A DNA stretch of 26,566 nt. Source: a virus. A program made the position numbers and the translations under genes. This document shows, in pieces, positions 397 to 21,968 of this stretch; the stretch's first letter is position 1, and each line of letters begins with the position of its first letter. The notes below the pieces were generated by a model. The model did not search any database and had not been told where the DNA came from. It saw nothing but the letters and a program-made list of their open reading frames with translations. Location of the stretch: the IMG/VR virus record IMGVR_UViG_3300046007_010801, positions 1 to 26,566 of that record; one strand, written 5' to 3'.

Positions 397-2091
397 ATGG
401 TAACTATTAAAGAAATATATAATGAACTAGTCGAAGCGGCTAGTCCGTCAGCTGTGGCGTATTTTCCTGGGAGTTTTAAACCTCCCCATAAAGGTCATTT
501 TAACGCTGTTAAAAGCTTAGCATCTCGTCCATTTGTTACACAAGTGGTTGTTATAATAGGTCAAAAGGAAAAAAACGGTATAAACGCCAACATGAGTAAA
601 GACATTTGGAATATATACTTAAAAGCGCAACCTAATCCTAAAGTTAAGGTTAGAATAGCTAGTGATGCATCTCCTGTTAAAGATATATTTGATATTTTAG
701 ACAAGGATTTAAATAAAATTGCTTATGTAGCTGCTACTATGAGTGATCCTGATGATCAAGGATATGTTGAATCTTTAACTAAAGCGTTTGGTGATAGAGT
801 AAAACCACTTAATGTTGAAGAACAAACATTAGTTAATGGTCAAGTACTAACAAGTGATCAAATTCTTGCTTTAGTAGGTGAATTAAAACAATATGACTCT
901 CAGCTTAAAACAGCTGATAAAGGTACTACAATATATAGCAAAGCTAGAAATGGATACTTAAATACATTAAACAAACTAAAAGCATGCTTCCCAGAATCAG
1001 TAATCCAAAAAGGATTATTTGATGATGTAGTTAGAATCTTAGGTGTTGATTTGTTTAGTCCTGATGAATTACAAGAAAATATATTCTCAATTGGATGGTG
1101 GAGTGATGTGTTAAAAGAAGAAGAATATAAACTTGACGTTAAACCTACAGTTAAAGCTAAAGATGTTGACCCTAAAGAACTAAAGAAAGGTATTGCAGTT
1201 GAGAAAGAACACACAACAGATCTTAAAACTGCTAAACGAATAGCTTTAAATCATTTAGGTGAAGATCCAAAATACTATACTAAATTAGCTAAAGCTAAAT
1301 TAGAAGAAGAACAAAACGGTAACTTAGACTCTATAAATGATTTTATAAAATTTGCTGTTGATACTTTAGAATTACAACAAGTACCTAAAATAACTTTTAC
1401 AGATGATGAGGAATTAGCTAAGCAAATGCATTCATTAGGAATGTATAAACCTCAAACAGATGAGTTATTAGTTGTACGTGGTAATAGAATGATAGCTGAT
1501 GTTTTAAGGACATTAGCTCATGAATTAGTACACCGTAAACAAAATGAATTAGGACAACTTGAACCTGGGTCTGGAGCTACTGGATCACCAGTTGAAAATG
1601 AAGCTAACGCTGCCGCTGGTGTTTTATTAAGATTATATGGTGCTAAAAATACTGATATATATGAAGCTATAAAATTAAATGAAGTAGGTGAAATTAGTAA
1701 TCCATTTGATTGGAAATATGATTTTGCTGATGATGATGGAAACTATTTTTACTCATTTAATTCTCCCCAAAACAAATACTCAGTAGGCATCAGTTGGAGT
1801 GGAGATGACTCATACGAAGTATTATTTAATACTGAAGGTGAGATGGGTCAAGATACAGGTGAAGGAGTAGCTATGAGAGTATTATCCACTGTAACAGCTA
1901 TAACACTTGATTTTATAGATAGAATTGATCCTGAAGAAGTTATTCTTAGACCTATACAAACTAAAAAAGCAGGTGATAAAGTAGATACAAGACGTTTTAA
2001 TGTTTATGGAGCTTATTTAAGAAAAAATTTGCCTTCTGGCTATAAATTAATAACTTTAGGAGATACATACCGCATGATAAAAAATAGATAG
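397..2091 (+). CDS. Nucleotidyltransferase / DUF5661-like / HExxH metallopeptidase fusion with head-targeting leader
   Basis: A 564-residue multidomain protein. Residues 1-13 (MVTIKEIYNELVE|A) look like a capsid-targeting leader with a gp21-type cut site. Residues about 20-165 are a cytidylyltransferase-type domain: PGSFKPPHKGH carries the HxGH nucleotide-binding motif (H31, H34). Residues about 255-303 resemble DUF5661 (ELKKGIAVEKEHT, then HLGEDPKYYTKL). Residues about 310-425 contain LAHELVHRKQ, an HExxH zinc motif (H375, E376, H379), with ENEA near 400-403 as a likely third ligand, so a zincin-type peptidase. Residues about 430-564 match a C-terminal domain I recall from marine phage proteins, function unknown. 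Further LxE-type sites (DVLKE near 241, KLNE near 429) fall between domains, so the protein might be cut into parts in the prohead. Substrates of both enzyme domains are unknown. Confidence 0.75.
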   Translation: MVTIKEIYNELVEAASPSAVAYFPGSFKPPHKGHFNAVKSLASRPFVTQVVVIIGQKEKNGINANMSKDIWNIYLKAQPNPKVKVRIASDASPVKDIFDILDKDLNKIAYVAATMSDPDDQGYVESLTKAFGDRVKPLNVEEQTLVNGQVLTSDQILALVGELKQYDSQLKTADKGTTIYSKARNGYLNTLNKLKACFPESVIQKGLFDDVVRILGVDLFSPDELQENIFSIGWWSDVLKEEEYKLDVKPTVKAKDVDPKELKKGIAVEKEHTTDLKTAKRIALNHLGEDPKYYTKLAKAKLEEEQNGNLDSINDFIKFAVDTLELQQVPKITFTDDEELAKQMHSLGMYKPQTDELLVVRGNRMIADVLRTLAHELVHRKQNELGQLEPGSGATGSPVENEANAAAGVLLRLYGAKNTDIYEAIKLNEVGEISNPFDWKYDFADDDGNYFYSFNSPQNKYSVGISWSGDDSYEVLFNTEGEMGQDTGEGVAMRVLSTVTAITLDFIDRIDPEEVILRPIQTKKAGDKVDTRRFNVYGAYLRKNLPSGYKLITLGDTYRMIKNR

Positions 2092-2094
2092 GTT

Positions 2095-2565
2095 ATGAAA
2101 TACACAATATATTGTGACATGGATGGCGTACTTGTCAACTTTGTCCAAGGTTATAAAGAGTTAACAGGGATAGATACTTCCACTTATGTTCAAGGTAATG
2201 CTAATTTTTGGGCTCCTGTAGACGCAGAAGGTGCAGCTTGGTGGGCTAATTTAGATTGGATGCCTGATGGTCCTAATCTATGGAATTATATTAAAAAATA
2301 TAACCCATATATTTTATCATCTCCATCACGTAGTAACAGTTCTAGAGTAGGTAAGGATGCTTGGTGTAAAATCAACATACCAAACCAATATAGAAAACTA
2401 TTACTTTATCCTAGACATGAAAAACAAAAATTTGCTGGCCCTAATCATATACTAATTGATGATATGGCTGAAACCATTAAGGAATGGAATAATAAAGGTG
2501 GTATAGGCATACTTCATAAATCAGCTGCTACTACTATATTCACACTTAAAACTCTTGGATTATGA
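2095..2565 (+). CDS. HAD-superfamily 5'(3')-deoxyribonucleotidase-like protein
   Basis: A 156-residue protein starting 3 bases after the previous stop. The N-terminus has YCDMDGVLVNF, the HAD motif I DxDGxxx(D/N) with nucleophile D8 and acid/base D10. Motif II is probably ILSSPS (residues 73-78), the basic motif III residue lies in HEKQKFAG (109-115), and motif IV is ILIDD (119-123). This set and length fit the 5'-nucleotidase C family, which removes phosphate from nucleoside monophosphates, including small phage members. A role in nucleotide pools during DNA synthesis is plausible. It ends in a 4-base ATGA overlap with the next gene, so the two are likely translated together. The superfamily is sure; the exact substrate is not. 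Confidence 0.82.
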   Translation: MKYTIYCDMDGVLVNFVQGYKELTGIDTSTYVQGNANFWAPVDAEGAAWWANLDWMPDGPNLWNYIKKYNPYILSSPSRSNSSRVGKDAWCKINIPNQYRKLLLYPRHEKQKFAGPNHILIDDMAETIKEWNNKGGIGILHKSAATTIFTLKTLGL

Positions 2566-3137
2566 GTGAAACTAACTTAAAACGTGAATTTTCCAAACGT
2601 GATGTTCAACGTATGAGAAATATCATCACTGGTAATACTGGTGGTGCTACTGGTGTTCAAGCTGGTTATGAAAAACAACAAAACGAACATATTGAAGGTG
2701 ATATATGGGAAGAAAATGGTCGTAAATGGACTATTAAGGATGGTATTAAAAAGACAATGTCTAAACTTAGCCACTTTAAAAAATTAACACTACTACCAAT
2801 AGCTTGTCCTACCTGTTCCCAGCCCATGAAGAACACAGAGTACAATAAAAAAATGTATTCTATACATAAGATGTGTATTGATTGTGTAGCTAGAATGGAA
2901 ACTAAGTATAAAATAGAAGGTAAATATGAGAGTTACGCTAAAGGTATACTGAACGCTAATAAAAATAATGAGCTTGATGACTTTGAAGCAGCTGTACAAG
3001 ATTGGCTAACTTCACAAAATGATACGTTTGTTTCTGAAGCAGGCGATATAGAGTCATGGAAAGGTGGTAAAATAAGCGAGCTTGAAATTAAAAACATCAA
3101 AGAATACATAGCTAAGTTACGAGCAACAGAATTATAA
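2562..3137 (+). CDS. Conserved phage protein with a four-cysteine zinc-binding motif
   Basis: A 191-residue hydrophilic protein that overlaps the previous stop by 4 bases. The N-terminal half (KREFSKRDVQRMRNIITG, then GYEKQQ and GDIWEENGRKWTIKDGIK) resembles a protein family I recall from large marine and T4-like phages, with no assigned function. The middle has C82-P-T-C85 and C105-I-D-C108, a CxxC...CxxC pair about 20 residues apart that should bind one zinc ion. The C-terminal part is helical and charged, with no recognised domain. A nucleic-acid-binding role is possible because of the basic N-terminus and zinc knuckle, but nothing in the sequence proves it. Confidence 0.65.
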   Translation: MSETNLKREFSKRDVQRMRNIITGNTGGATGVQAGYEKQQNEHIEGDIWEENGRKWTIKDGIKKTMSKLSHFKKLTLLPIACPTCSQPMKNTEYNKKMYSIHKMCIDCVARMETKYKIEGKYESYAKGILNANKNNELDDFEAAVQDWLTSQNDTFVSEAGDIESWKGGKISELEIKNIKEYIAKLRATEL

Positions 3138-3154
3138 TCTTTGGCACCCTATTT

Positions 3155-3162
3155 ATATTTAT
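3155..3162 (+). promoter_or_regulatory. ATATTTAT motif, candidate late promoter
   Basis: This copy sits in an extended T/A tract between two genes and ends 21 bases before the ATG at 3184. The gap between the genes is only 46 bases. The promoter role is inferred from the repeated placement. Confidence 0.45.
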
Positions 3163-3183
3163 ATAGGAATAATTCTAGCTTAA

Positions 3184-3582
3184 ATGGAAGTAACAGTAAT
3201 AACTAAAAATAGCCAACCAATGGCTGATTTTGTATCAACCTTATTGGAATCTCGCAACCAAGCCCATGTATTTCATTGGCAAGTTCAAGGTGAAGGATCA
3301 GATGCTAGACATAGAGCATTAGAAACATACTATGATGAAATTGTTGATTTAATTGATGAATTAGTTGAATCATATCAAGGTCGTTATGGAATACTACGTG
3401 GTTATAAAGGTAACGCTGAATATCTTGAAAATCAAAGTGAATTAAAATACTTTGAAGCACTTTGCATGTATGTTGAAAAAAATCGCGGCTCATTACCTCA
3501 AGACTCATACATCCAAAACCAGATTGATGAAATAGTAAAGTTAATTGAAATAACTAAGAATAAACTAATAAACTTACGTTAA
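3184..3582 (+). CDS. Ferritin/Dps-like helical phage protein (DUF5856-like)
   Basis: A 132-residue, mostly helical protein. The segment QAHVFHWQVQGEGSDARHRALETYYDEIVDLIDELVESYQG (residues about 26-66 in two stretches) matches a small phage family, DUF5856-like, in which the HWQ, ARHRAL and DELVE elements resemble the two-helix core of Dps/ferritin-like proteins. Candidate metal ligands are H28, H31, H43, E47 and D51. Ferritin-like proteins bind iron or protect DNA from oxidation, but a distant phage member may not keep this activity. The stop overlaps the next start by one base (TAATG), linking it to the small-protein cluster downstream. Family membership is judged from motif memory, so the function is tentative. 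Confidence 0.6.
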   Translation: MEVTVITKNSQPMADFVSTLLESRNQAHVFHWQVQGEGSDARHRALETYYDEIVDLIDELVESYQGRYGILRGYKGNAEYLENQSELKYFEALCMYVEKNRGSLPQDSYIQNQIDEIVKLIEITKNKLINLR

Positions 3583-4319
3583 TGAGATTAGTTGATATAT
3601 TAAAAGAAGGTCTAGAAGATCATGCTAAATATGAACTAACCAAAGCTGGTTTGTTTGATAAAGATTCTGACTATGGTGGAATGATAGGTAAAGCTGTTTT
3701 AGAACTAACCCAAACATTTGCTAAACAAGGTCATAGTGGTATGAGTGCCGCTTGGGTTAGAGAATTATTTAATAAACTAGCTAATTATGAAACATTAACT
3801 CCAATCACTAACGAAGCTGAAGAGTGGAATGATATTACTGAATATAATGGTAATGGTAAACAATTATTCCAAAATAAACGTAATCCTGCTGTCTTTTCTA
3901 AAGATGGAGGTAAAACATGGTATAATGTAAATGAAAAGACTATTAAAGAAGGAATTAAAATAGGTCTTACTCAATATAAAACATTACTTAAAGAAGAAGA
4001 AAATCCAATAGTATATAAGATAAAGGGTATTCTTGTTACCAACACTGAAATACGTGGACAAACTGATATTTTATCTGATATTCGTTCTTTATCAGGTATC
4101 ACAATTGTATCAAGCAAAGAATTACGCCCTGACGCTGAAGTGACAGATAATCCTTATTTTTATTCTGAATTGAGTGTTAAGATTGATCCACATCCTTATT
4201 TAGGTAAAGGTGGATTTGGTAGAACTAATCTAGAAAATCTAATTAAAGCTATTAACCGTATTCAAGGTGTACGTAATTTTAAAATTACATCTAAAGTAAC
4301 ATCTGCAAAACCATACTAA
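3582..4319 (+). CDS. Two-domain protein with capsid-targeting leader; predicted head-packaged
   Basis: A 245-residue protein starting inside the previous stop (TAATG). It begins MRLVDILKE|G, a clear gp21-type leader. Residues about 13-115 (HAKYELTKAGLFDKDSDYGG, QGHSGMSA, EEWNDI, FQNKRNPAVF) match a domain common in T4-like phage genomes with no known activity. A second domain (about 141-240) with the look of a small alpha/beta fold (VYKIKGILVT, then ILSDIRSLSGITIVSS) follows. Between the two lies KTLLKE|EE (residues 133-140), another (L/I)xE-type site, so the two halves could be separated during head maturation. Its place among several proteins with the same type of leader supports a packaged internal protein. 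The biochemical function is unknown. Confidence 0.6.
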   Translation: MRLVDILKEGLEDHAKYELTKAGLFDKDSDYGGMIGKAVLELTQTFAKQGHSGMSAAWVRELFNKLANYETLTPITNEAEEWNDITEYNGNGKQLFQNKRNPAVFSKDGGKTWYNVNEKTIKEGIKIGLTQYKTLLKEEENPIVYKIKGILVTNTEIRGQTDILSDIRSLSGITIVSSKELRPDAEVTDNPYFYSELSVKIDPHPYLGKGGFGRTNLENLIKAINRIQGVRNFKITSKVTSAKPY

Positions 4320-4594
4320 TGAAACTACTTAAACTCATACAAGAACTAGAAAAACCAACTCAGATATACTCCCCAGGCTCTGAACCAGAGAAAACATCTG
4401 GCGGTAAAGAATCTGAGATATTACCTAGTGGTGAAGTAGTATATTATGATAATATTAGATTATCTAATTTAACTAAAGCACTTAAAAAAGAAATTAAAAA
4501 ATTTGACACGAGAAATCCTGGCAAAATAAAAAATATTTCTGGTATTAATAGAGCATTAGATCAAATTACAGGTATACTTAAACAAGCTAACTAA
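4319..4594 (+). CDS. Small protein with capsid-targeting-like leader
   Basis: A 91-residue protein, translation-coupled to both neighbours through TAATG junctions. It starts MKLLKLIQELE|K, similar to the other leaders in this cluster, although the residue after the proposed cut is Lys instead of Ala/Gly, which makes cleavage less certain. The rest is polar and lysine-rich, with a Ser/Gly/Pro linker (residues about 17-40) and a C-terminal helix. I do not recognise the family. The position and leader suggest a head-packaged small basic protein. Confidence 0.5.
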   Translation: MKLLKLIQELEKPTQIYSPGSEPEKTSGGKESEILPSGEVVYYDNIRLSNLTKALKKEIKKFDTRNPGKIKNISGINRALDQITGILKQAN

Positions 4595-5205
4595 TGGACT
4601 TAAGAGATATAATACACCAAATAGATGAAACTCAAGACATTCATGGTCCTAAGTTATCATTAAATGAAAATAAAGCTAATTTATCTGAAGGTCTTCAATA
4701 TCATATTGATAATGATCTTCAACTAATTGAAAATATATACCGTCCATTATCTATTAATTATTTTGCTTTATTTCGTGAAGCAAGACAATTATATAATGAT
4801 GGTAAAATATTAGTATCAACTGCTGATAGAGAATTACTTGAAACTCAAATAGGTGAGTTTGGAGAATATAATGGGATTAAAGTTCCATTAGACTATATCA
4901 TAACAGAAGGTGAGTTGGAAGAAGAAAAAAAAGTACAACTTGGTAAACCAAAACGTGGTGGTTCTAAAAAGTTTTATGTATTTGTTAAAGATCCTAAAAC
5001 TAAACGTGTTAAAAAAGTATCATTTGGTATGGCAGGTGGTGGGTTAAGAGCTAAACTTAATAACCCACAAGCACGCCGTGCCTTTTCTAATCGCCATAAT
5101 TGTCCTCAGAAAAAAGATAGAACTAAAGCTTCATATTGGAGCTGTCGTTTACCTCGTTATGCAAAACTATTAGGATTTAAAACAACATTTAGTGGATATT
5201 GGTAA
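4594..5205 (+). CDS. Predicted head-packaged protein with basic C-terminal phage domain
   Basis: A 203-residue protein joined to its neighbours by TAATG. It begins MDLRDIIHQIDE|T, a variant leader. A middle domain (about 33-101: EGLQYHIDNDLQLIENIYRP, then GEFGEYNGIKVPLDYI) recurs in marine phage proteins from memory. Then comes IITE|GELEEEKK (102-112), a good (L/I)xE|G site, followed by a basic domain (117-203) with GKPKRGGSKKFYVFVKDP, RRAFSNRHNC and SYWSCRLPRYAKLL. This last domain is frequent in T4-like phages and, being Lys/Arg-rich, could contact DNA inside the head. Cleavage at E105 would release it as a separate peptide. Domain order is visible; functions are unknown. Confidence 0.6.
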   Translation: MDLRDIIHQIDETQDIHGPKLSLNENKANLSEGLQYHIDNDLQLIENIYRPLSINYFALFREARQLYNDGKILVSTADRELLETQIGEFGEYNGIKVPLDYIITEGELEEEKKVQLGKPKRGGSKKFYVFVKDPKTKRVKKVSFGMAGGGLRAKLNNPQARRAFSNRHNCPQKKDRTKASYWSCRLPRYAKLLGFKTTFSGYW

Positions 5206-5432
5206 TGATTAGTTTAATTCAAATATTAAAAGAAGGAAAAATCGAATACCCTGCTGATCATCAGCCTGGTATGCGTGTGACTAAAGGTGGTTCAATGTGC
5301 GCTAATTGTGAATATTGGATCGCTGAAGGTAATTTATGTAATAACCAATATTGGCTCCAATGGAATGATGGCGATGAGCAAGTTCCATACCCCGCCGATG
5401 AATATTGCTGTAATTGGTGGCATGCTAAATAA
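5205..5432 (+). CDS. Cysteine-rich, possibly Fe-S (HiPIP-like) protein with capsid-targeting leader
   Basis: A 75-residue protein. The ATG at 5205 overlaps the previous stop as TAATG and is preferred over an in-frame TTG at 5199, because it puts MISLIQILKE|G at the N-terminus, a leader like those nearby. The mature part has C32-A-N-C35, C45, C68 and C69 (EYCCNWW). A CxxC pair followed by two spaced Cys and an aromatic end is like high-potential iron-sulfur proteins, though spacing differs and a zinc site is also possible. An injected metal- or cluster-binding protein would be unusual. The gene and leader are well supported; the cofactor is a guess. Confidence 0.6.
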   Translation: MISLIQILKEGKIEYPADHQPGMRVTKGGSMCANCEYWIAEGNLCNNQYWLQWNDGDEQVPYPADEYCCNWWHAK

Positions 5433-5438
5433 ATTAAC

Positions 5439-5702
5439 ATGAGTCAACCATATACAGACTTATTAGTTACAAGTGAATATATAATTAGGGAATTTGATGA
5501 AAACATTGACCCTATAGAATTAATGTGGCATCGAGATGATGAAAATAGAACAATAGAAATAATTGGGAATACTGATTGGATGATACAGTTAGAAGATAAA
5601 TTACCAACTTCAATGAATAATCCAATATTTATCCCTAAACATGCGTGGCATAGAGCCATAAAAGGAACAGGTAATTTAAAACTTAAAATATATAAATGTT
5701 AA
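5439..5702 (+). CDS. Cupin-like small phage protein
   Basis: An 87-residue protein with WHRDDENRTIEIIG, TDWMIQLEDKLP and IFIPKHAWHRAIKGTGNLKLKI. The arrangement of short beta strands with WHRD early and WHR late recalls small cupin-type phage proteins, whose paired His residues can bind a metal. The family recurs in marine phages, but I know of no proven function. It has no leader of the (L/I)xE type, unlike most of its neighbours. It overlaps the next gene by 7 bases. Confidence 0.6.
   Translation: MSQPYTDLLVTSEYIIREFDENIDPIELMWHRDDENRTIEIIGNTDWMIQLEDKLPTSMNNPIFIPKHAWHRAIKGTGNLKLKIYKC
5625..5632 (+). other. Intragenic copy of ATATTTAT
   Basis: An exact copy of the proposed promoter motif inside the cupin-like gene, about 64 bases before the next start (5696). 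It may be chance in AT-rich DNA. It is listed because it is the one exact intragenic copy I noticed. Confidence 0.25.
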
Positions 5703-5893
5703 ATAAAATGTTAAACACTATTAATTCACCTGAAGCTAACGCGGCTGGGGTAATTACAACATGCCTGACAGCACTTAATAGTTTCTTTCAGATGTTTAAT
5801 CCTGTATTAACAGGTATATTTTATATAGCATCTATAGCATGGTTAGCTGTTCAAATATATTATAAAGTAAAAAACAAAAATAAAAATGGGTAA
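5696..5893 (+). CDS. Small membrane protein, holin candidate
   Basis: A 65-residue protein with one strong membrane segment (VLTGIFYIASIAWLAVQIYY, about 37-56), a weaker hydrophobic segment before it (about 17-34), and a Lys/Asn-rich C-terminal tail. Size, membrane segments and basic tail fit a class II holin, the pore that lets the endolysin or proton-motive-force collapse end infection. No endolysin is visible in the window, so the call rests on topology alone. It overlaps both neighbours by 7-8 bases. A second ATG at 5708 is a possible alternative start. Confidence 0.5.
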   Translation: MLNKMLNTINSPEANAAGVITTCLTALNSFFQMFNPVLTGIFYIASIAWLAVQIYYKVKNKNKNG

Positions 5894-6347
5894 AGAATTA
5901 GTTCGCGCCTTAATTACTGAAACAGTAAAAGATCGCATTAAACAAATTAAAGAAAAAGCTGAAGCTAGTAAAACAGCACACGCTAAAGACGTGGTTAAAA
6001 TCCTAGAAGATGAAGCTAAAGTACTTGATAAATTAGCTACTGCTGTTAAAAAAGAATATGACAAGCATGACTTTGGTGAGTTAAAGAAAGAATTAGATCG
6101 TCTTGAATCATTACGTGATTCTAAATTGGCTAAGGCTGAAGCTTTAAAGAAAAAGCACATGGCTGGTGAGAAAAGCGATAAGAAAAAGAAAATTGAAGAA
6201 AAACTAAAACCTAAAATGGGCGCAGGTGCTTATGTTAAAGATTTTGAAAAATCTAAAGCTCCACAGTTCAAAGGTAAGTCTAAAGAGAAAAAACAAAAAA
6301 TGGCTATCGCCGCTTATCTATCAGCTAAGGGTGAGAAGAAAAAATAA
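5886..6347 (+). CDS. Lys-rich coiled-coil protein with possible capsid-targeting leader
   Basis: A 153-residue, very basic, alpha-helical protein. It begins MGKELVRALITE|T, ending in an ITE site. Residues about 15-105 are a long charged helix or coiled coil; the C-terminal part (GAGAYVKDFEKSKAPQFKGK, then KEKKQKMAIAAYLSAKG) matches a short module that I recall at the end of many T4-like and marine phage proteins. The strong positive charge would suit a DNA-neutralising internal head protein. It overlaps the holin-like gene by 8 bases and joins the next gene through TAATG. The function is unknown. Confidence 0.6.
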   Translation: MGKELVRALITETVKDRIKQIKEKAEASKTAHAKDVVKILEDEAKVLDKLATAVKKEYDKHDFGELKKELDRLESLRDSKLAKAEALKKKHMAGEKSDKKKKIEEKLKPKMGAGAYVKDFEKSKAPQFKGKSKEKKQKMAIAAYLSAKGEKKK

Positions 6348-7144
6348 TGATTAACCTAAAAGACATATTAGTTGAAGCTCTACTTGAGAAAAAAGCAGAC
6401 AGATGTAAACGCATAGCTGATAGACGCTATGATAAACCATCAGCTTATAAATCAGGAGCTATAGTAAGATGTCGTCAAGGTAAAATTTGGAAAGACCTCA
6501 AAGAAGATGATTTAGAAGAAGCTAAACAAGTTGGTATTTTATATCACTGGACATCATTAAAAAATTTAGAAGATATAATTAAAACTAATACCATACGCCC
6601 CGCCTATTCTGAGTTTGATGATGAAGATCAAGGGGTTTCTTTAACTCGAAGCAAAAACAAACATCAATTTGGAATATCTGAAGCAGCAGATTGTGTTATA
6701 GTTTTAGATGGAGATAAATTATCTAATAATTATAAAATTAAACCATATAATGATTTAGAAGTAGCTCAGTATGATGATTTTGGTGTTTTTGATGAAATGG
6801 AAGAAAGATTATTAGGTTCTATTAAAAATTTAAACAAATATGTAGTAAAAATCATACTGTATAAATCAGATCCTAAAATTGAATCTTTATTAAAAGAAAA
6901 AAATATACCCTACGAATTAAATTTAAATGAATCACTACATAAGTGGTTTTCAAGAAAAGGAGGCGCTGGCAAAGAAGGTGGTTGGGTTGATTGTAATACA
7001 TGCCGTAAAGTAGATGGTAAAACTAAGTGTAAACCTTGTGGTAGAAAAGAAGGTGAAAAACGAGCTAAATACCCGTCATGTCGACCAACACCCGCAGGAT
7101 GTAAAAGACCAGGCAAAGGTAAAACTTGGGGTAAAACAAAATAA
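6347..7144 (+). CDS. ADP-ribosyltransferase-like protein with capsid-targeting leader
   Basis: A 265-residue protein. N-terminus: [11 protein letters not shown], a textbook gp21-type leader. Residues about 15-48 ([27 protein letters not shown]) match a short Cys/basic module common in phages. Residues about 62-172 have the order LYHWTS (65-70), VSLTR (97-101), VIVLDGDKL and EMEERLL (150-156), which resembles the H/R-S-E pattern of ADP-ribosyltransferase folds, with E150-x-E152 or E153 as candidate catalytic Glu. LNLNE|S (191-196) then separates a C-terminal Cys-rich basic module ([29 protein letters not shown]). T4 packages its ADP-ribosyltransferase Alt in the head, so a packaged enzyme of this type makes sense. 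The ART assignment rests on motif order only. Confidence 0.6.
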
Positions 7145-7145
7145 T

Positions 7146-7469
7146 ATGAAATTACTTAATATACTTAAAGAAACTTTAGATCCTGTTGGTAAAGAAGACA
7201 GTGATATAAATAATGATGGTAAAGTAGATAAAACTGATAAGTATTTATCTGCTCGTCGTAAAGCTATATCTAAAACTATTAAAAAAGAAGGTGAAGACCA
7301 TGAAGTGTCTATGGCTCAAAGTAGTTTAAAAGTAATAATTCAATCCGCCCAAGAATTAATGACTAAAATGGGTCAAGAAGAAAAAGATATACCTGGATGG
7401 ATTCAAGATCACATCACTAACGCTGAGAATTATATTAATCAAGCTAATAAAGGATACCACGAACTATAA
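7146..7469 (+). CDS. EF-hand-loop protein with capsid-targeting leader
   Basis: A 107-residue protein. The ATG at 7146 is chosen over in-frame upstream starts that would run deep into the previous gene, because it follows that gene's stop by one base and gives [10 protein letters not shown], a typical leader. Next is a 12-residue loop with D20, N22, D24, G25, D28 and D31, matching the D-x-(D/N)-x-D-G pattern of EF-hand or dockerin calcium loops, followed by a helix ([14 protein letters not shown]). The C-terminal half ([23 protein letters not shown]) matches a helical module I recall from marine phage head or hypothetical proteins. Calcium binding is likely from the loop; the role is unknown. 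Confidence 0.65.
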
Positions 7470-8557
7470 TGGATAATAAAAATATATTAAGAAGTTATTT
7501 AGCTACTGAGCTAAAAAAGTCATTCAGCGAGGTTGAAGATGATACATTAGACACTGTTGATGATACTGTAGATGATGTTGAAACACCTACTGAGCCTGAA
7601 CCTACTCCTTCTCCTGAGCCTGAAGAAGAACCAAAATCTCCTGAAGAAAAAGCGTTTGAAGAGAATCCATTAGAATTTATTCTAAACAAATATCCATCAT
7701 TAGATGAAACTTTAATCACTCTATTAACATCAGATTATAGAGATTATATTACAGGTATTTATATTATTGCTCCTAAACCAACTAAGTTTAAGGTTGTATT
7801 ACATAATAATCAATCGTTTTACTTAACTTATATGGGTAAAACATATGAGGCTACTATATCAGGCAAACGTTATTACTTAATTGGATTAGGTGATATTCAA
7901 AGAGCCACAATGGCTTTATCTAACTTATTAACATTAGGAGCTCCTAAAGACGGACTTGAAGGACCAGCTGATGTTATGACTCCAACAGCTGAAGAAAAAG
8001 GCAAAGAAGAAAAAGGAGCCGCAGCACCAGAAGAAAAACCAGCTGGTGGTGAAGGCGAAGAAGTAGAACTTAAAGAATCAACTATGAATATTCAAAACGA
8101 AGCTGTTAGAACAGCTGAAATTAGCGAAGGTGATAGATTCACAGTAGCTACAGACATGGGTAAGTTTAAAGCTGGAGACAAAGTAACTGTTGATAGCATT
8201 GAAGCTTATGGTAATGATGTTAGAATTTATATGTCTACTGATAGTGGAACTAAAGATTTTATTATTGTAGATAGAAATGATGACTCAATTGATTTAGATT
8301 ACTCTATTGATGAATCAGACATATATGGTATAGCGGGTGATCCTGAAAAAGAATCAGATATGAAAGCCGCTAAACTAGGAGCTGGTAAAGAAAAAGTTAA
8401 GAAAGCAGTAGTTGCTTATAAAAAACTACTTAAGAAATATAAAGAATTAGACCGCACTGATCCTAAAAAAGCAGCGGTTTCAAAGCAAATGGTAACTCTA
8501 GTAGCAGCCACCAAAAAACAGTTTGGTGTTGACTTAGAGACAATTGCTTCAAAGTAA
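7469..8557 (+). CDS. Acidic/Pro-rich multidomain phage protein, function unknown
   Basis: A 362-residue protein joined to the previous gene by TAATG. Residues about 22-65 are an acidic linker with repeated Pro-Glu. Residues about 66-155 (NPLEFILNKYPSLDE, then DYITGIYIIAPKPTKFKVVL and SFYLTYMGKTYEATISGKRYY) match a compact domain that recurs in T4-like phages. A second linker rich in Glu, Ala and Gly follows (about 165-200), then a beta-rich segment (GDRFTVATDMGKFKAGDKVTV, given in part) that looks like a small barrel, and a Lys-rich helix at the end. LATE near residue 14 could be a cut site, but this is weak. It is likely structural or head-internal; no enzyme motif is seen. Confidence 0.5.
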   Translation: MDNKNILRSYLATELKKSFSEVEDDTLDTVDDTVDDVETPTEPEPTPSPEPEEEPKSPEEKAFEENPLEFILNKYPSLDETLITLLTSDYRDYITGIYIIAPKPTKFKVVLHNNQSFYLTYMGKTYEATISGKRYYLIGLGDIQRATMALSNLLTLGAPKDGLEGPADVMTPTAEEKGKEEKGAAAPEEKPAGGEGEEVELKESTMNIQNEAVRTAEISEGDRFTVATDMGKFKAGDKVTVDSIEAYGNDVRIYMSTDSGTKDFIIVDRNDDSIDLDYSIDESDIYGIAGDPEKESDMKAAKLGAGKEKVKKAVVAYKKLLKKYKELDRTDPKKAAVSKQMVTLVAATKKQFGVDLETIASK

Positions 8558-8612
8558 GTTTGGCTAACCGATCTAGATTAGCTATCATTATCTTAATTTT
8601 ACGTATATCGTT

Positions 8613-9392
8613 ATGATAGAAAACAAAAAGAAACGACTATTCTTTGACATAGAGACTAGTCCAAACATCGGCTTTTTCTGGTCAGCTGGTTATAAGCTAA
8701 ACATTCCATACTCAAACATTATAAAAGAACGTGCTATCATCTGTATCTGCTACAAGTGGGAAGGTGATGATAAAGTATATTCGTTGAATTGGGATAATAA
8801 CCAAGACGACAAGAAAATGTTAGAAAAGTTTATGACAGTTGCTAATGAAGCTACTGAGTTAGTGGGCCACAATGGTGATAGATTTGATCTACCATGGATC
8901 AGAACACGTTGCCTATACCACAGAATACCTGTATTTCCTACTTACACTACAATTGACACATTAAAGCATTCACGCTCTAAATTCAGATTCAACTCAAATC
9001 GCTTAGATTATATATCTCAGTTCTTGAAAGTTGGTGAAAAATTAGAGACAGGATTTGACTTATGGAAAGATATTGTACTAAATAAAGACAAGGAAGCGTT
9101 AGAAAAAATGATTACATATTGTAAGAATGATGTGGTTATACTTGAAAAAGTATACCATGAACTTTCAAATTATGTACCTCATAAAACACATTATGGTGTA
9201 TCTAATGGTGGTGAAAAATATTCATGTCCTGAATGTGGTTCAAATGATTTGCGCTTTTCACAACGTCGTTATACAGCAGCTGGTACACCACGTATTCAAT
9301 TACAATGTAATGAATGTCATAAGTATCATACCGTGTCTAATACAGCATATGAAAAGAAATTAGCTGCTGAAGACGCCGCTGCGGAATTATAA
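8613..9392 (+). CDS. DEDD-type 3'-5' exonuclease with C-terminal zinc ribbon
   Basis: A 259-residue protein of the RNase H-like/YprB exonuclease group. Motif I is FDIETS (D12, E14), motif II is GHNGDRFDLPWI (D89, D92 region), and motif III is YCKNDVVIL (Y169, D173), giving the DEDDy set that binds two metal ions. The C-terminal part has CPECGS (C205, C208) and CNECH (C232, C235), a zinc ribbon likely to contact nucleic acid. It probably degrades or proofreads DNA, separately from any polymerase. It follows a 55-base gap with no ATATTTAT motif. Confidence 0.85.
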   Translation: MIENKKKRLFFDIETSPNIGFFWSAGYKLNIPYSNIIKERAIICICYKWEGDDKVYSLNWDNNQDDKKMLEKFMTVANEATELVGHNGDRFDLPWIRTRCLYHRIPVFPTYTTIDTLKHSRSKFRFNSNRLDYISQFLKVGEKLETGFDLWKDIVLNKDKEALEKMITYCKNDVVILEKVYHELSNYVPHKTHYGVSNGGEKYSCPECGSNDLRFSQRRYTAAGTPRIQLQCNECHKYHTVSNTAYEKKLAAEDAAAEL

Positions 9393-9400
9393 GTCATTTA

Positions 9401-9408
9401 ATATTTAT
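9401..9408 (+). promoter_or_regulatory. ATATTTAT motif, candidate late promoter
   Basis: This copy lies in the 23-base gap before the gene at 9416 and ends 7 bases before its ATG. It belongs to the short-gap class. Confidence 0.45.
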
Positions 9409-9415
9409 CACTGAT

Positions 9416-9757
9416 ATGGCAACACAAACACTTAAACAGCAATTAGTTAACGAGATAACAGTTGACTTACTTAAAGAAGAAGCAGTTGATATTTCTCGTG
9501 AAGAACTAGTACAGAAAATTAAAGACACTAAAGGTGCTTACTTCACTGTAACTTTTATTAAGAAAGATGGTACAGAACGTACAATGAATGCTCGTTTTGG
9601 TGTTACTAAGTACTTAAAAGGTGGTTCATTACCTTATGATCCTATCTCTAAAGGCTTACTACCAGTATTTGATCAAAAAACAGGTGAATATAGAATGATT
9701 AATACTGCTACTTTACTTTCAGCTAAGGTTAGTGGTGAAGAATATAAAGTGAAATAA
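9416..9757 (+). CDS. SH3-beta-barrel (WYL_2/DUF2693-like) phage protein
   Basis: A 113-residue protein. After an N-terminal helix (ending LLKE|EA at residue 21, a possible gp21 site), it has KGAYFTVTFIKKDGTERTMNAR (given in part), GVTKYLKGG, GLLPVFDQKTGEYRMINT and a final beta strand. This pattern matches the small SH3-barrel family often annotated in Bacteroidetes phages and in crAss-like phages (WYL_2/DUF2693). The activity is unknown; barrels of this type often bind nucleic acid or protein partners. The presence of this family is a weak hint of a Bacteroidetes host. Confidence 0.65.
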   Translation: MATQTLKQQLVNEITVDLLKEEAVDISREELVQKIKDTKGAYFTVTFIKKDGTERTMNARFGVTKYLKGGSLPYDPISKGLLPVFDQKTGEYRMINTATLLSAKVSGEEYKVK

Positions 9758-9763
9758 CATAAC

Positions 9764-10108
9764 ATGAAAATCCAACTTAATGAAATTAAAAGAATGCAGC
9801 AATTAGCTGGTATTTTAAAAGAAGAACAAGATATTGATTATTTTAGTCCTGATAGAACTCGAGGAGGATATGAATATGCTCAATATTGGGATGATGCTAA
9901 TAATGAATTAGAGTTAGGATTTGATGAAGATAAAGATCTTTTAGATATAGCTAATAACGCTGATGAACCGTGGCAGAGAGCTTTTGCTAATCAAGTAATT
10001 AAAGATGCAAAAACAAAAATTGATTCCTTTTTTGGAAGTGCAATACAGGAATATCAACTTTTTAAAAATATAGTTAAAAAAGCATATGAAGATAACAATC
10101 CTTTTTAA
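9764..10108 (+). CDS. Small acidic protein with scaffold-like capsid-targeting peptide
   Basis: A 114-residue protein. Residues 1-20 contain EIKRMQQLAGILKE|E. The segment IKRMQQLAGILK (residues 8-19) repeats the scaffold C-terminus (IRRMQQLAGIIK, residues 346-357 of the protein at 22164) with only two conservative changes. The rest is acidic with WDDANNELELGFDEDKDLL and ends in a helix. I do not recognise a domain in it. The shared peptide strongly suggests recruitment into the prohead, followed by cleavage after LKE. It is the last gene before a structured non-coding region. Confidence 0.6.
   Translation: MKIQLNEIKRMQQLAGILKEEQDIDYFSPDRTRGGYEYAQYWDDANNELELGFDEDKDLLDIANNADEPWQRAFANQVIKDAKTKIDSFFGSAIQEYQLFKNIVKKAYEDNNPF
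9785..9820 (+). repeat. Copy 1 of the MQQLAGI targeting peptide coding sequence
   Basis: These 36 bases match 23199-23234 at 31 of 36 positions by eye, including synonymous sites. The encoded peptides differ only at Lys/Arg and Leu/Ile. Confidence 0.8.
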
Positions 10109-12876: not shown

Positions 12877-13851
12877 ATGGCATTTGATTTTCAAAAATTC
12901 ATTCTCGAACATAGACTAAAAACTAAAGTCGAATTAAGCGAGATGGCACGTGTAGCTGCGGTGGCTTTTAAATTAGCACCTGACTACGAAAGTAAACTAA
13001 TGAACGTTAAAATAGGCGCTGCTCATAAAGCAATGATCGAGTACTTAAAATCTAAAGAAAATGAACCTCATACAGTAGGTGATATTTCACGAGCAATAGG
13101 CAAAGATTCAGCTTCTATTAACCAACCATATTTTAGAGAAAACTTAGTTAACGTTATCTTTGAACCAGTTCCTATTGGAGCTGCTACTACTAAACCAAAA
13201 GTAGAAGATGAAAATGATGTGTTTGTTGAACCTCAAGATATCCAATCAGGTAAAAGATTATCTAAGATAATTGATCCTGAAGATATGGTGTTAGGTAGTG
13301 ATATTGAAGATGATCTTGAAGCTGGTGTTTTATCATTTGGTCCTGAAGGTGGTGATGAAGAAGAAGAACCATCTGCTTCTGACATTGAAAAAGCTGAGCC
13401 TGCTGCTCCAACAGGTGCTAAAGGTAAAGCAGCTACATTCACACTTGATAATGATCGTTTACTTCAGAAACTAATCAATTCATATGCTGCTTCTAAAACT
13501 AAAGTTAAAGAAGCTAAAAGTAGTGAAGACATAGGTGGTATGTCAAGTAAAGATATTAAAATGTCAGACAAGAAAAGTAAAGAAGCAGCTGCTGCTAAAC
13601 TACCTGAACTTGTACAACAAATAGTTGATAAAATTAAAGCTGAAGATCCTGACGTACAAGAAGCAATATTAGATATTTTATCTAGTAAGTTTAGTAGTGT
13701 TGGTTATTCTTCATTATATAAGAGAATAGCTAAAGAAGTAGGAGTTAAAGCTAAAGACACTTCAAAAGAACCAGAAGTAGATAGTGAAGAAGGAGAAGAA
13801 GATTTAGCAGAAGCAATAAATGAATTAGTTAAGCAGTTAAATAGTTTATAA
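12877..13851 (+). CDS. Low-complexity phage protein, possible internal head protein
   Basis: A 324-residue protein. It begins MAFDFQKFILE|H, which weakly resembles the targeting leaders. Residues about 25-100 form a helical domain (AAHKAMIEYLKSKENEPHTV, then ISRAIGKDSASINQPYF) that could be a winged helix. The middle (about 105-185) is acidic and Pro/Ala-rich, and the last third is helical (LPELVQQIVDKIKAEDPDVQ, then YSSLYKRIAKEVG) with an acidic tail. No named family is recognised. It joins the next gene by TAATG. Its position just before the terminase operon fits a structural or lysis-related role, but this is a guess. Confidence 0.45.
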   Translation: MAFDFQKFILEHRLKTKVELSEMARVAAVAFKLAPDYESKLMNVKIGAAHKAMIEYLKSKENEPHTVGDISRAIGKDSASINQPYFRENLVNVIFEPVPIGAATTKPKVEDENDVFVEPQDIQSGKRLSKIIDPEDMVLGSDIEDDLEAGVLSFGPEGGDEEEEPSASDIEKAEPAAPTGAKGKAATFTLDNDRLLQKLINSYAASKTKVKEAKSSEDIGGMSSKDIKMSDKKSKEAAAAKLPELVQQIVDKIKAEDPDVQEAILDILSSKFSSVGYSSLYKRIAKEVGVKAKDTSKEPEVDSEEGEEDLAEAINELVKQLNSL

Positions 13852-14597: not shown

Positions 14598-14612
14598 ATA
14601 CAACAATTGTAT

Positions 14613-18180: not shown

Positions 18181-19041
18181 ATGAAAATTAAACACTCAAA
18201 GTTTAAAAATACTGGCATCTTGTTCGAACTATTAGTTCGTCAAATTGCGTCTGATACTTTAGCTAACGCTGACTCAAAAGCCGTTAGAATAGTAAAACGC
18301 TTTTTCACTAACAGTGAGCTAGCCAAGGAACATAAACTTTATCACACAATTGTGACCGCCCCAAGATTAAGTGAAGTAAAAGCCAATACTCTTGTAACAA
18401 CAGTACTTGAACAAAGTAAAAAATTAAATAAAGAGCAATTAGGTAAAGAAAAATACAACTTAATTAAAGAAATTAAGAAACATTATGACTTGGAAAGCTT
18501 TTTTAAGTCTAAAATTACTAATTATCCTGTACTAGCAGCCACATACACATTATTTGAGTCTTCAAACAACGATAGCTTTATTGAACCTAAACAAATCGTT
18601 ATAAATAAAATTACTCTTCTTGAACATATAACTAAAAAACCAATAGCCAGCGCTAAACCAACTGCTGAAACTATTGAAGAACAGTTCATGAAAGAAGATA
18701 AAAATGTTCGTCTTTTAGCATATAAAATGCTAATTGAAAAGTTCAATAGTAAGTATTCTAACTTATCAAATAAACAAAAGAATGTATTAAAAGAATACAT
18801 TAATAATATAAATGATACAGCTAAACTTAAAGAGTTTATTAATGAAAACTTAACAATAGCTAAGAAAGAATTAAATACTCTTAAGTCTAAAATTAATGAT
18901 AAAGTAATTGAAATTAAATTAACTGAAATTATTAGTTTTATTAAGCCTATTCCTTCTAAATCAACAGTTAAGGATGATCATATAGTTTCGTTACTACAAT
19001 ATTATCAGTTAATAGACGAAATTAAGAATACAAATGAATAG
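18181..19041 (+). CDS. Conserved T4-like head-cluster protein, unknown function
   Basis: A 286-residue Lys-rich helical protein directly after the portal. The N-terminus (MKIKHSKFKNTGILFELLVR, then QIASDTLAN and VKRFF) matches a protein that I recall in the same place in marine T4-like phages, with no named function. No enzyme motif is seen. In T4 the space between portal and protease holds core genes 67 and 68, so it may be a core or assembly protein, though it is much larger than gp67. It overlaps the next gene by 8 bases. Confidence 0.55.
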   Translation: MKIKHSKFKNTGILFELLVRQIASDTLANADSKAVRIVKRFFTNSELAKEHKLYHTIVTAPRLSEVKANTLVTTVLEQSKKLNKEQLGKEKYNLIKEIKKHYDLESFFKSKITNYPVLAATYTLFESSNNDSFIEPKQIVINKITLLEHITKKPIASAKPTAETIEEQFMKEDKNVRLLAYKMLIEKFNSKYSNLSNKQKNVLKEYINNINDTAKLKEFINENLTIAKKELNTLKSKINDKVIEIKLTEIISFIKPIPSKSTVKDDHIVSLLQYYQLIDEIKNTNE

Positions 19042-19522
19042 AGAAATACTAGAAGCATTAGTTCAAGAAGTATTAGATGAAATGTCTATGACTGGAACTG
19101 GTGCGTCTGTAACTCCTGGTACTGGTGAAGGTGTTGCTACAAAATATGCTTTTGCTAAAAAGAAAGACGGTAATAAAATCGCTAAAGACTATATCAAAAC
19201 ATTTGGTGGTTCTTTAGCTTCTTCTGTTCCTAATCGTGCTTCTAAAGCTATTGATTATAAAAAACTATTCCAAGAAAATTACGCTCGTTTTAGAAATGAA
19301 ACTAAAACAAGAAATAAACCAGAACATTTCCATCAAGCAGTTAAAGCTGTAAAAAAGCGCGCTATGGAAATTAATAAGTTATATGAGTACATGGAGCGTT
19401 TAAAAATGGAATTAAGTGAAGGTGATGAAAATATTAAGTTTAAAAAGTACACTGAGAAAGCTTTAAATCAAATTAAAGCTATCATTAGTGATTTAAATAA
19501 AAAAGTTAAAAAATTAAAATAA
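19034..19522 (+). CDS. Head-cluster protein with protease site and capsid-like TGTG/PGTGE motif
   Basis: A 162-residue protein. It starts MNREILEALVQEVLDE|M, which ends in an (L/I)xE site at residue 16. Residues 19-32 (MTGTGASVTPGTGE) closely match the mature N-terminus of the capsid protein in this window (QTGTGGTFTPGTGE, residues 62-75), which also lies just after its predicted cut site. The remainder is a Lys-rich helix (coiled-coil-like from about 80). It may be a core or internal head component that docks like the capsid N-terminus. Its position between portal and protease corresponds to T4 67/68. The motif match is visible; its meaning is inferred. Confidence 0.6.
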   Translation: MNREILEALVQEVLDEMSMTGTGASVTPGTGEGVATKYAFAKKKDGNKIAKDYIKTFGGSLASSVPNRASKAIDYKKLFQENYARFRNETKTRNKPEHFHQAVKAVKKRAMEINKLYEYMERLKMELSEGDENIKFKKYTEKALNQIKAIISDLNKKVKKLK

Positions 19523-19669: not shown

Positions 19670-21334
19670 ATGACAACATTAGAATTATACCGTAAACATA
19701 AAGCTGGCGAAGTATCTCGCGAGAAGTTTTTATATGAAGTAAGACGTGATAATAATATCCCATGGGTATTAAACACTACATCATATGATGATGCTATTAA
19801 GATCCTTAAAAACAAAAGTATTATTAGTGAAGAATATGATGGTGGACCTGAAGATTTAGCTAAAATGGCTAAAGATGAAGACAACACAGCTACACTAACA
19901 AGTGCTGAAGTAGTTAAACTATCAGCTAAAGCAGGACAAATAGTTCCAGATGCAGAAGCTGATTTAAATGATTTAGCTTCAGCTTACGGTGATAAAGTAC
20001 CTAAACGTAAAGTAATAGATCTTTTAGCTAATTATGATATTACATTCGCTGACCTAAGAAAAGTTAAAGCATCAAAAGAAAAATGGTTATCTATGGATGA
20101 CTTGATGAATAGAGGATATCTTGAAGAAGATGAAAATCTTGAAGAAACATCTCCTCAAGATGCTAAAGCAGTTGAAGATGCTATTAATACAGGTAAAATA
20201 GATCCTGAAAAAGTAAAATCAGCAGCTGAAAAAGCAGAAAAAGGTGACCCAACTGATTTAGCTTTACTTATGCTTAATGCTGGAAGATTATTTGAAGCTA
20301 AAAAAGGTAAGAAAAAACAACCAAAAGAATTACATATAGATGTAGCTAACCCATATGAATATCGTCATGGTATTCAACATGAGTTAACTGAAATGGATGA
20401 TTATAGTGCTGAAGCACTTGAAAAAGCTAAATCTAAAGTATTAAAGAACTTAGCTAAAGATCCATTATTTTATTCTACTTTACTTAACCAAAAACAATCA
20501 CCTTACAAATTCAAAGCACCTGAAACTGACAAACCAGGAATGCAGGCTAACGCTGATGGTACTTTAAAGAAAGGTGCTGGTAAAGTTGAAAAAGCAAACG
20601 TTAAAGATACTCAAGGTAAAAAAGAAGAAGGATCTAAACATCCTAAAGGTGTTAAAGAAATGACTATGACACCTAAAAAAGCCAAAGGAATTAAAAAGAC
20701 TATGGCTGTACCTGGTAAAGAAAAAACTATTAAGCTAAAAGAAGGTATAAAACTTATGGATTTTTTTTTAGCCGAAGATAGAGCAATGTTCGCTGATGAA
20801 CCTGCTGATGCTGAAAAATATAAAATAAAAAAAGATCTTAAAGGTAAAATAGTACAAGCCACTAACGATGAAGGTGACACATTCAGCATGAATGATGAAG
20901 CTATAGCAATTGATAATGGACAAAAAATTAAAATAGCTGGTTTTGAAGAATCTCAAGGTAAAGTAAAAGCATTATATAACGCTGGTATGTTTTTCTCATC
21001 AATTGATATCGATGGATTAAAACCAGTAAATAAAGGATTTAGACCTGGTGTTGATTTAGGTAAATCATTTGAGAAATTTAAAGGTATCAAAGAATACATT
21101 AAGTCTAAACTTAAAACAGAAGATGCTGCTAAAGACAATCAAGCAAAGCAAGCAGCAATTGTCGCGGCTGGTAAAGAATTAGATGCTTTAAGAAGTCAAT
21201 TAAGTGGAATCAATAATGATACCGGTTTAAACCCAGACGAGAAAAATAAAAAGAAAGCGTTCTTACAATCAAAAATAAATGATGCCACTAAAAGAGCAGC
21301 AGATTTAAGATCAGGAAAAGTAACATACCCATAA
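19670..21334 (+). CDS. Large prohead core-type protein with several predicted protease sites
   Basis: A 554-residue, highly charged protein just before the protease. The N-terminus (TLELYRKHKAGEVSREKFLY, then EVRRDNNIPWV) resembles one seen in marine phage core proteins. LNAGRLFE|AKKG (E209) is a strong gp21-type site, followed by a DUF5661-like domain (about 227-275: NPYEYRHGIQHELTEMDDYS, then NLAKDPLFYSTLL). Residues 280-360 are Lys-rich and disordered; MDFFLAE|D (363-370) is another site; then a beta-rich domain (about 378-460) and a C-terminal helix. A run of nine T (20761-20769) sits in the reading frame. The protein is probably cleaved into several peptides during maturation. The role is inferred from place and cut sites. 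Confidence 0.6.
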   Translation: MTTLELYRKHKAGEVSREKFLYEVRRDNNIPWVLNTTSYDDAIKILKNKSIISEEYDGGPEDLAKMAKDEDNTATLTSAEVVKLSAKAGQIVPDAEADLNDLASAYGDKVPKRKVIDLLANYDITFADLRKVKASKEKWLSMDDLMNRGYLEEDENLEETSPQDAKAVEDAINTGKIDPEKVKSAAEKAEKGDPTDLALLMLNAGRLFEAKKGKKKQPKELHIDVANPYEYRHGIQHELTEMDDYSAEALEKAKSKVLKNLAKDPLFYSTLLNQKQSPYKFKAPETDKPGMQANADGTLKKGAGKVEKANVKDTQGKKEEGSKHPKGVKEMTMTPKKAKGIKKTMAVPGKEKTIKLKEGIKLMDFFLAEDRAMFADEPADAEKYKIKKDLKGKIVQATNDEGDTFSMNDEAIAIDNGQKIKIAGFEESQGKVKALYNAGMFFSSIDIDGLKPVNKGFRPGVDLGKSFEKFKGIKEYIKSKLKTEDAAKDNQAKQAAIVAAGKELDALRSQLSGINNDTGLNPDEKNKKKAFLQSKINDATKRAADLRSGKVTYP

Positions 21335-21335
21335 C

Positions 21336-21968
21336 ATGAGCAAACAAGTTTTAATAGAATATTTTGCGTTTAAACCATCGCCTAAATCATTACATGAGGC
21401 TAAAACAAGCCGTGATGGAAACTTAATAGTTGAAGGTGTAGTACAGCGTGCTGATGCTACAAATGAAAACAGAAGAGTTTACCCTAAACCGGTACTTGAG
21501 CGTGAAGTAGAAAAATATATATCTGGCCCTATCGCTGAAAACCGCGCTTTAGGCGAATTAGACCATCCAGACTCATCAATCATTAACCTTAAAAACGTAT
21601 GCCATAATATTAAAAAATTATGGTGGGATGGTGATGATTTAATGGGTAGTATTGAAGTATTACCTACACCTAGTGGTAATATATTAAAATCGTTGTTTAT
21701 TAACAATATTACCGTGGGAATTTCGTCTAGAGGAATGGGTTCAGTAAAGCCGTTGGGTGAAGGAACTGTCGAAGTTCAAGACGATTTTGAGTTATTATGT
21801 TGGGATTTCGTTTCAACACCATCAACTCAAGGTGCATTTATGCGCCCTGTTGGAACAATGAATGAAAGCTACAACCCATCAACCAAAACATACACCAAAT
21901 ATACCAAAGTGAACCAATTAATCTCAGAAATTATTTGCTCTCAGACAGGTATATGTTGCATAAGATAA
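21336..21968 (+). CDS. 21: Prohead core protease (T4 gp21-like)
   Basis: A 210-residue serine protease of the herpesvirus-assemblin-like S77 type. GELDHPD carries the catalytic His (H77) and VGISSRGMG carries the catalytic Ser (S130 or S131). The surrounding NLIVEGVVQRADATNENRRV block and CWDFVSTPS are conserved in this family. It is built into the prohead core, becomes active after assembly, and cuts scaffold, capsid and internal proteins after (L/I)xE before DNA packaging. It starts one base after the previous stop and a terminator follows. It is the enzyme expected to process the many (L/I)xE leaders in this window. Confidence 0.93.
   Translation: MSKQVLIEYFAFKPSPKSLHEAKTSRDGNLIVEGVVQRADATNENRRVYPKPVLEREVEKYISGPIAENRALGELDHPDSSIINLKNVCHNIKKLWWDGDDLMGSIEVLPTPSGNILKSLFINNITVGISSRGMGSVKPLGEGTVEVQDDFELLCWDFVSTPSTQGAFMRPVGTMNESYNPSTKTYTKYTKVNQLISEIICSQTGICCIR

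Follow-up and report, generated by a model that had tools for sequence, protein, structure and literature searches.

The viral record IMGVR_UViG_3300046007_010801 of IMG/VR, analysed here over its whole length of 26,566 nucleotides (26.6 kb, hereafter the window), carries a T4-type head gene cluster: the large terminase gene (gp17, starting at 14607), the portal gene (gp20, starting at 16227), and the genes for a prohead protease of the T4 gp21 type (21336-21968), a scaffold protein (22164-23237) and the major capsid protein gp23 (23268-24899), the last three on the plus strand. In this cluster and upstream of it, many predicted proteins begin with a short leader that ends in the motif (L/I/V)xE, and these leaders are the subject of this work. 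Genes of the window are named by their start coordinates, and loci of relatives by L-numbers. As a preliminary description of the window had proposed, a gp21-like protease is encoded: the product of gene 21336 matches Peptidase_S77 (PF03420, 8e-31) and has the motifs GEL(D/N)HP and G(I/V)SSRG in common with T4 gp21, and an S77 protease gene is also present in five large relatives. The capsid protein (PF07068, 1.3e-76) possesses the same type of site, as likewise claimed, namely the maturation site QLVVE/A (a slash marks a cut; VVE at 23436-23444), the counterpart of FLTE/A in T4 gp23, and an N-terminal SLIE/S, both of which are kept in relatives. Among sequenced isolates, Flavobacterium phage immuto is the nearest by terminase identity (59.5%), followed by Microcystis phage Mel-JY01 (50.9%); a flavobacterial host is therefore likely for the window phage.

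The N-termini listed in the preliminary description were all confirmed in place, with ATG starts, and most of the listed genes stand as predicted payloads, i.e. proteins that would be packaged in the head and injected. All of them lie on the plus strand. Gene 397 (397-2091) encodes a putative polyprotein with the leader MVTIKEIYNELVE (397-435), a nucleotidyltransferase-like domain, DUF5661 and a metallopeptidase-like region; the nucleotidyltransferase-like assignment draws on a weak Pfam match (0.0028), an HxGH motif and the annotation of the immuto relative. Its relatives are leadered in L096, L107 and L110, while the homologues in L067, L131, L133 and L136 begin at the domain itself. Gene 4319 (4319-4594) starts with MKLLKLIQE (4319-4345; the L146 relative reads MIKLLNILSE/LEKPQQIYSPG), gene 5205 (5205-5432) with MISLIQILKE (5205-5234), and gene 7146 (7146-7469), which contains a DxNNDGxVD module, with MKLLNILKE (7146-7172). 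The leader MATQTLKQQLVNE (9416-9454) precedes a WYL_2 Sm-like domain (PF10902, 6e-6) in gene 9416 (9416-9757), and gene 9764 (9764-10108) begins with a leader resembling the scaffold tail, MKIQLNEIKRMQQLAGILKE (9764-9823). A payload or core protein with the leader MAFDFQKFILE (12877-12909) is encoded by gene 12877 (12877-13851), and two further predicted payload genes, 3582 and 6347, are described below. Gene 2095 (2095-2565), 5'-nucleotidase-like, is leaderless in the window and has relatives that are leadered or fused into a polyprotein. Two listed genes are weak members of the set: 4594 (4594-5205), a probable payload with a basic C-terminus, the weak leader MDLRDIIHQIDE and internal (L/I)xE sites that its relatives retain, and 5886 (5886-6347), a possible payload with the leader-like start MGKELVRALITE and no family support.

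Leaders were defined as in the preliminary description, as (L/I/V)xE ending at residues 8-20. They occur in 18 of 33 window genes, whereas internal windows of these proteins predict about 7, and in 11 of the 17 genes of 397-9764, where 3.0 would be expected; neither count was reached in 100,000 simulations. The complete genome of immuto has such sites in 20 of 31 genes of the block made up of the head genes and those upstream of them versus 32 of 185 elsewhere (Fisher 2e-7), the latter rate being near the internal background; its leadered genes include those at 103322, 111631, 112217 and 118588. Three other large contigs have strict leader patterns in 23 of 140 genes near the head cluster versus 6 of 383 elsewhere (p=1.7e-9). 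The leader set is thus real and extends to immuto and other contigs. For one set of loci, picked by terminase alone and with first-ATG calls as gene starts in the relatives, the N-terminal rate exceeded the internal rate upstream of the terminase gene (0.35 versus 0.16) and from the terminase to the capsid gene (0.54 versus 0.21), and the two rates after the capsid gene were 0.12 and 0.14. Among phage records, tblastn with bare leaders matched immuto only, so isolates fail to show how far the leaders have spread. A search of relatives with gene 397 gave no match, its patterns being too specific.

Four recurring leader classes were distinguished: A (RMQKLAGIITE), B (MIKLxDILxE), C (FDLKKFLxE, the class of gene 12877) and D (MKKSQLRxIIKE). 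Across 72 examples of class B, the conserved sites show hardly any change at second codon positions, third positions are variable and the upstream DNA is unconserved; positions 4, 7, 8 and 10 fall within the selection pattern, and 2, 3 and 6 outside it. The leaders are conserved as protein, not as DNA. The closing E is constant throughout class B, having been part of the selection pattern; at P1', A and S are slightly enriched, but so are E and I, and this position is not clean evidence. A small number of leaders of classes A and C lie far from head genes (L085:1803, L085:25470, L152:12061 and 13178), so that payload genes also occur outside a single block.

The proteins behind the leaders are, as the preliminary description had stated, otherwise unrelated: one leader type recurs on unrelated payloads, and a single payload family may carry several types. 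Payloads with an ADP-ribosyltransferase (ART) domain have a class A leader in L129, class B in L098, L115, L118, L122 and L124, and class D in L117 and L121. Family counts were restricted to small clean families, single-linkage clustering having over-merged others (137 and 216 members). Leaders are present in 7/8 members of the 12877 family, 4/4 of the 5205 family and 5/6 of the WYL_2 family of gene 9416 (class A or B/D). They are almost never present in the interleaved genes, core genes among them: among relatives, the counts were 0/60 for the portal, 0/34 for the protease, 0/47 for 18181, 0/65 for 12336, 0/57 for 12078, 0/46 for 13851, 0/26 for 2562 and 1/44 for 10696. Leader loss while the domain persists, which the preliminary description had named as a refutation, is mostly not what was seen: some homologues show it, but nearly all members of the three families above are leadered. 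Starts such as MSDLKQIIREEYLKC make 5 of 82 terminases (window gene 14607 and relatives) leader-like, probably by chance, and this fraction serves as a guide to the false-positive rate. The 93 leadered proteins sampled from relatives include matches to zeta toxin/AAA kinases, WYL_2, PDDEXK nuclease, 5'-nucleotidase and DUFs, and most of the 93 had no match; no payload matched the T4 IPI-III or Alt families in Pfam or PHROG, and the ART fold described below is closer to DarT/KptA.

The class A peptide is shared with the scaffold protein. It was matched 23 times at payload N-termini, 24 times at protein C-termini and 4 times internally in more than 400,000 positions (47/51 matches terminal), and nearly all C-terminal matches belong to the scaffold gene, which immediately precedes the capsid gene. 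The window scaffold terminates in the tail RRMQQLAGIIK (23202-23234) after PIVE/ (IVE at 23178-23186), and gene 9764 starts with MKIQLNEIKRMQQLAGILKE; the C-terminus of this scaffold is matched by the leader type RMQQLAGILKE. An (L/I/V)xE lies shortly upstream of each of the 24 C-terminal tails, so that the protease could part the tail from the scaffold body as it could the leader from the cargo. Because the class A leader is the scaffold tail peptide, class A cargo probably docks at the site where the scaffold tail docks. The DNA encoding RMQQLAGI(I/L)K is identical at 28 of 30 bases between the 3' end of the scaffold gene (22164-23237) and the 5' end of gene 9764 (9764-10108), which is suggestive only of a segment copied from the scaffold end to 9764, because codon bias could explain the identity.

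Several payload genes resemble polyproteins, in which sites of this type recur at the junctions between domains. A search of all proteins with the mature parts of leadered proteins gave 81 internal domain starts, 68 of which have (L/I/V/M)xE within 8 residues of the start, versus 25.5 expected. Gene 6347 (6347-7144, plus strand) is the best described example: its product would comprise a leader (6347-6376), a DUF5872 N-module, an LEE junction (to 6520), an ART-like domain (6521-6931), an LNE junction and a WVDCNTC module (6932-7141), and each of these parts occurs alone elsewhere with its own leader. The residue that precedes the ART domain, E58, is the sole nearly invariant column of the ART alignment, and in the cases seen the domain is always preceded by E, whether it follows a leader or another domain. 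In the AlphaFold2 model the ART core has a predicted local distance difference test (pLDDT) score of 80-93 and the junctions are disordered. Top Foldseek matches of the central domain were DarT and KptA/Tpt1, with a probability of about 1.0 and E-values of 8e-4 to 3e-2. According to this model, 6347 contains a DarT/KptA-like ART fold. The DUF5872 proteins (L094:3168-3974, L095:2880-3491, L096:8001-8894 and window 6347-7144) share one insertion point, bordered by (L/I)xE sites, at which their inserts differ, as in a cassette whose payload can be swapped.

The cleanest single case is gene 3582 (3582-4319, plus strand), which encodes the leader MRLVDILKE (3582-3608), a Tad3 domain at residues 11-123 and a second domain. 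The Tad3 match (PF25185, 1.1e-32) scores 112.8 bits with a gathering cut-off of 27 and covers profile positions 3-110 of 119. An LLKE junction follows residue 138, between the two domains, and the second domain is a separate gene with its own leader in L104, L105, L117 and L119. Leaderless Tad3 homologues from phages of other kinds and two viral contigs begin with MGLIEHAK, MSLKEFAK or MSLSNHAR, and these starts align to GLEDHAK, directly after MRLVDILKE in the window. Judged by this alignment, the leader is an added nine-residue piece that ends at the predicted cut. The protein is a predicted Thoeris inhibitor, a function taken from the Pfam name; a literature search outside subscription journals found no paper linking Tad3 with Thoeris.

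Other genes of the window have related features. Gene 19034 (19034-19522, plus strand) lies between portal and protease, at the T4 gp67/gp68 position, and begins with the leader-like MNREILEALVQE (MKKSQIVKAVQEVLEE in immuto). It had been counted with the payloads in the preliminary description; lying among head genes, it is probably a core protein. The protein encoded at 19670-21334 has an internal leader-like stretch, EGIKLMDFFLAE, and may likewise be a precursor with cleavage sites. In the gene at 7469-8557 the leader is degenerate, yet it is present in the L105 and L117 relatives, and several internal (L/I)xE sites (VELKE, EISE) occur. Within the payload block, a leaderless PolB-type 3'-5' exonuclease/RNase H-like protein with a zinc ribbon is encoded at 8613-9392.

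From the leaders, their conservation, position and modularity, the junction sites, the protease and the scaffold-tail identity, all read from the sequences, we infer packaging, cleavage, docking and injection: with high confidence, the best explanation is that the (L/I/V)xE N-termini are T4-style prohead-targeting propeptides feeding a modular injected arsenal. Payloads made late would be drawn by their leaders into the scaffold core of the prohead, where the S77 protease would cut after E and leave mature payloads free inside the head, to exit with the DNA into the next cell. Leader types would be interchangeable, class A cargo would dock through the same peptide as the scaffold C-terminal tail, and multi-domain payload genes would encode precursors whose junctions are cut by the same protease. 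We lean, with only a modest preference, towards a broader proposal, in which cargo is loaded by a scaffold docking peptide copied onto payloads, the protease splits this peptide from the body in both scaffold (IVE/...RMQQLAGIIK) and cargo (RMQQLAGILKE/...) and also cuts polyproteins into separately delivered effectors, and the whole forms a modular loading code of a large T4-like phage group.

The leadered proteins could instead serve head assembly, the leaders being prohead-core or scaffold modules and the proteins being packaged and cut as core or shell components but not delivered. The core-like 19034 and the capsid N-terminus do carry similar sites, and the class A leader equals the scaffold tail; yet the payload domains are enzyme- or counter-defence-like (Tad3, ART fold, nucleotidyltransferase-like, zeta-toxin/AAA, PDDEXK, 5'-nucleotidase), payloads differ between phages, and Tad3 is present leaderless in unrelated phages, which makes this explanation unlikely. 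Leaders such as MIKLIDILKE are also amphipathic, and N-terminal helices with another role (membrane, chaperone or tail docking) would leave the glutamate pattern incidental. This we regard as very improbable, given that the final E of class B, part of the selection pattern, is invariant, E precedes the ART domain in every case seen, junction sites are enriched, and leadered genes cluster near head genes, not tail genes. Chance or DNA-level conservation was ruled out by the enrichment and the codon pattern. A combination of chance with conserved 5' DNA or start-codon misannotation, to which a short and common motif would lend itself, has a negligible probability, being contradicted by the codon pattern, the interleaved negative controls and the enrichment in the window, immuto and the three large contigs.

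Several points weigh against the propeptide interpretation. The motif is weak, with a chance rate of 16-21% of internal windows, so that individual members, 5886 and 4594 for instance, may be spurious; most relatives of 4594 do not retain its N-terminal site. Some homologues are leaderless (2095 in the window and several 4594 relatives), and the leader of 7469 is degenerate. The leader classes and their regular expressions were set after inspection of the data, and homologous genes are non-independent, which inflates the class A and junction p-values.

Entry of T4-type internal proteins is tied to a short leader, for which no docking partner was found named in the searched literature, and a leader identical to the scaffold tail offers a concrete candidate for that partner. 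The leaders also provide a search key for dozens of mostly uncharacterised proteins probably delivered at infection, among them a counter-defence protein of the Tad3 family, and suggest that phage heads could be loaded with proteins by means of removable tags. The scaffold-tail identity, the polyproteins, the Tad3 domain and the ART fold of 6347 go beyond the preliminary description. In the same literature we found no report of such leaders in this phage group, nor of the set size, leader classes, scaffold mimicry or polyproteins; as far as this search shows, the principle is known from T4, and the extent, classes, scaffold identity and polyproteins are new.

The T-even internal proteins are diverse defence proteins whose sole common part is the capsid targeting sequence, which also packages foreign proteins (PMC3012670), and gp21 trims propeptides of 10-20 residues off the T4 internal proteins (PMC5694885). 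With the same tools, T4 cargo served as a positive control: ipII and ipIII (MKTYQEFIAE/A) and alt (MELITELFDE/D) show the length and site of the window leaders, in agreement with the likeness noted earlier, as does the cleaved vertex protein gp24 (MAKINELLRE/S). The window phage thus resembles the gp21-cut IPI-III and Alt of T4 in the leader of about 10 residues ending in (L/I)xE, its occurrence on unrelated proteins, the S77 protease, and a varied set of payloads with an ADP-ribosyltransferase and counter-defence proteins among them. In the phiKZ-like giant phages (SPN3US, phiKZ) a head protease likewise strips propeptides from ejected proteins, and SPN3US has two paralogues with identical N-termini (PMC5694885), but these propeptides mostly exceed 100 residues, end in AxE or SxE and are cut by an S80 protease, whereas those of the window have 9-20 residues and end in (L/I/V)xE. 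Polyvalent proteins of phages (Iyer et al. 2017, PMC5512222) are similar in being multi-domain conflict proteins, including some with ART domains, that are predicted to be packaged and injected; unlike the window phage, they are not described with T4-type leaders or junction prohead-protease sites in the passages of that source consulted. DarT and KptA/Tpt1 share the fold of the 6347 central domain at low sequence identity, and 6347 is assigned to neither family. Gene 3582 holds a nearly full Tad3 domain (PF25185) and differs from the phage homologues examined, which are leaderless, by its leader. The window phage departs from T4 itself in that leadered genes are far more numerous, leaders fall into at least four classes, payloads cluster upstream of the head genes, one leader type is identical with the scaffold tail, and some payloads look like polyproteins.

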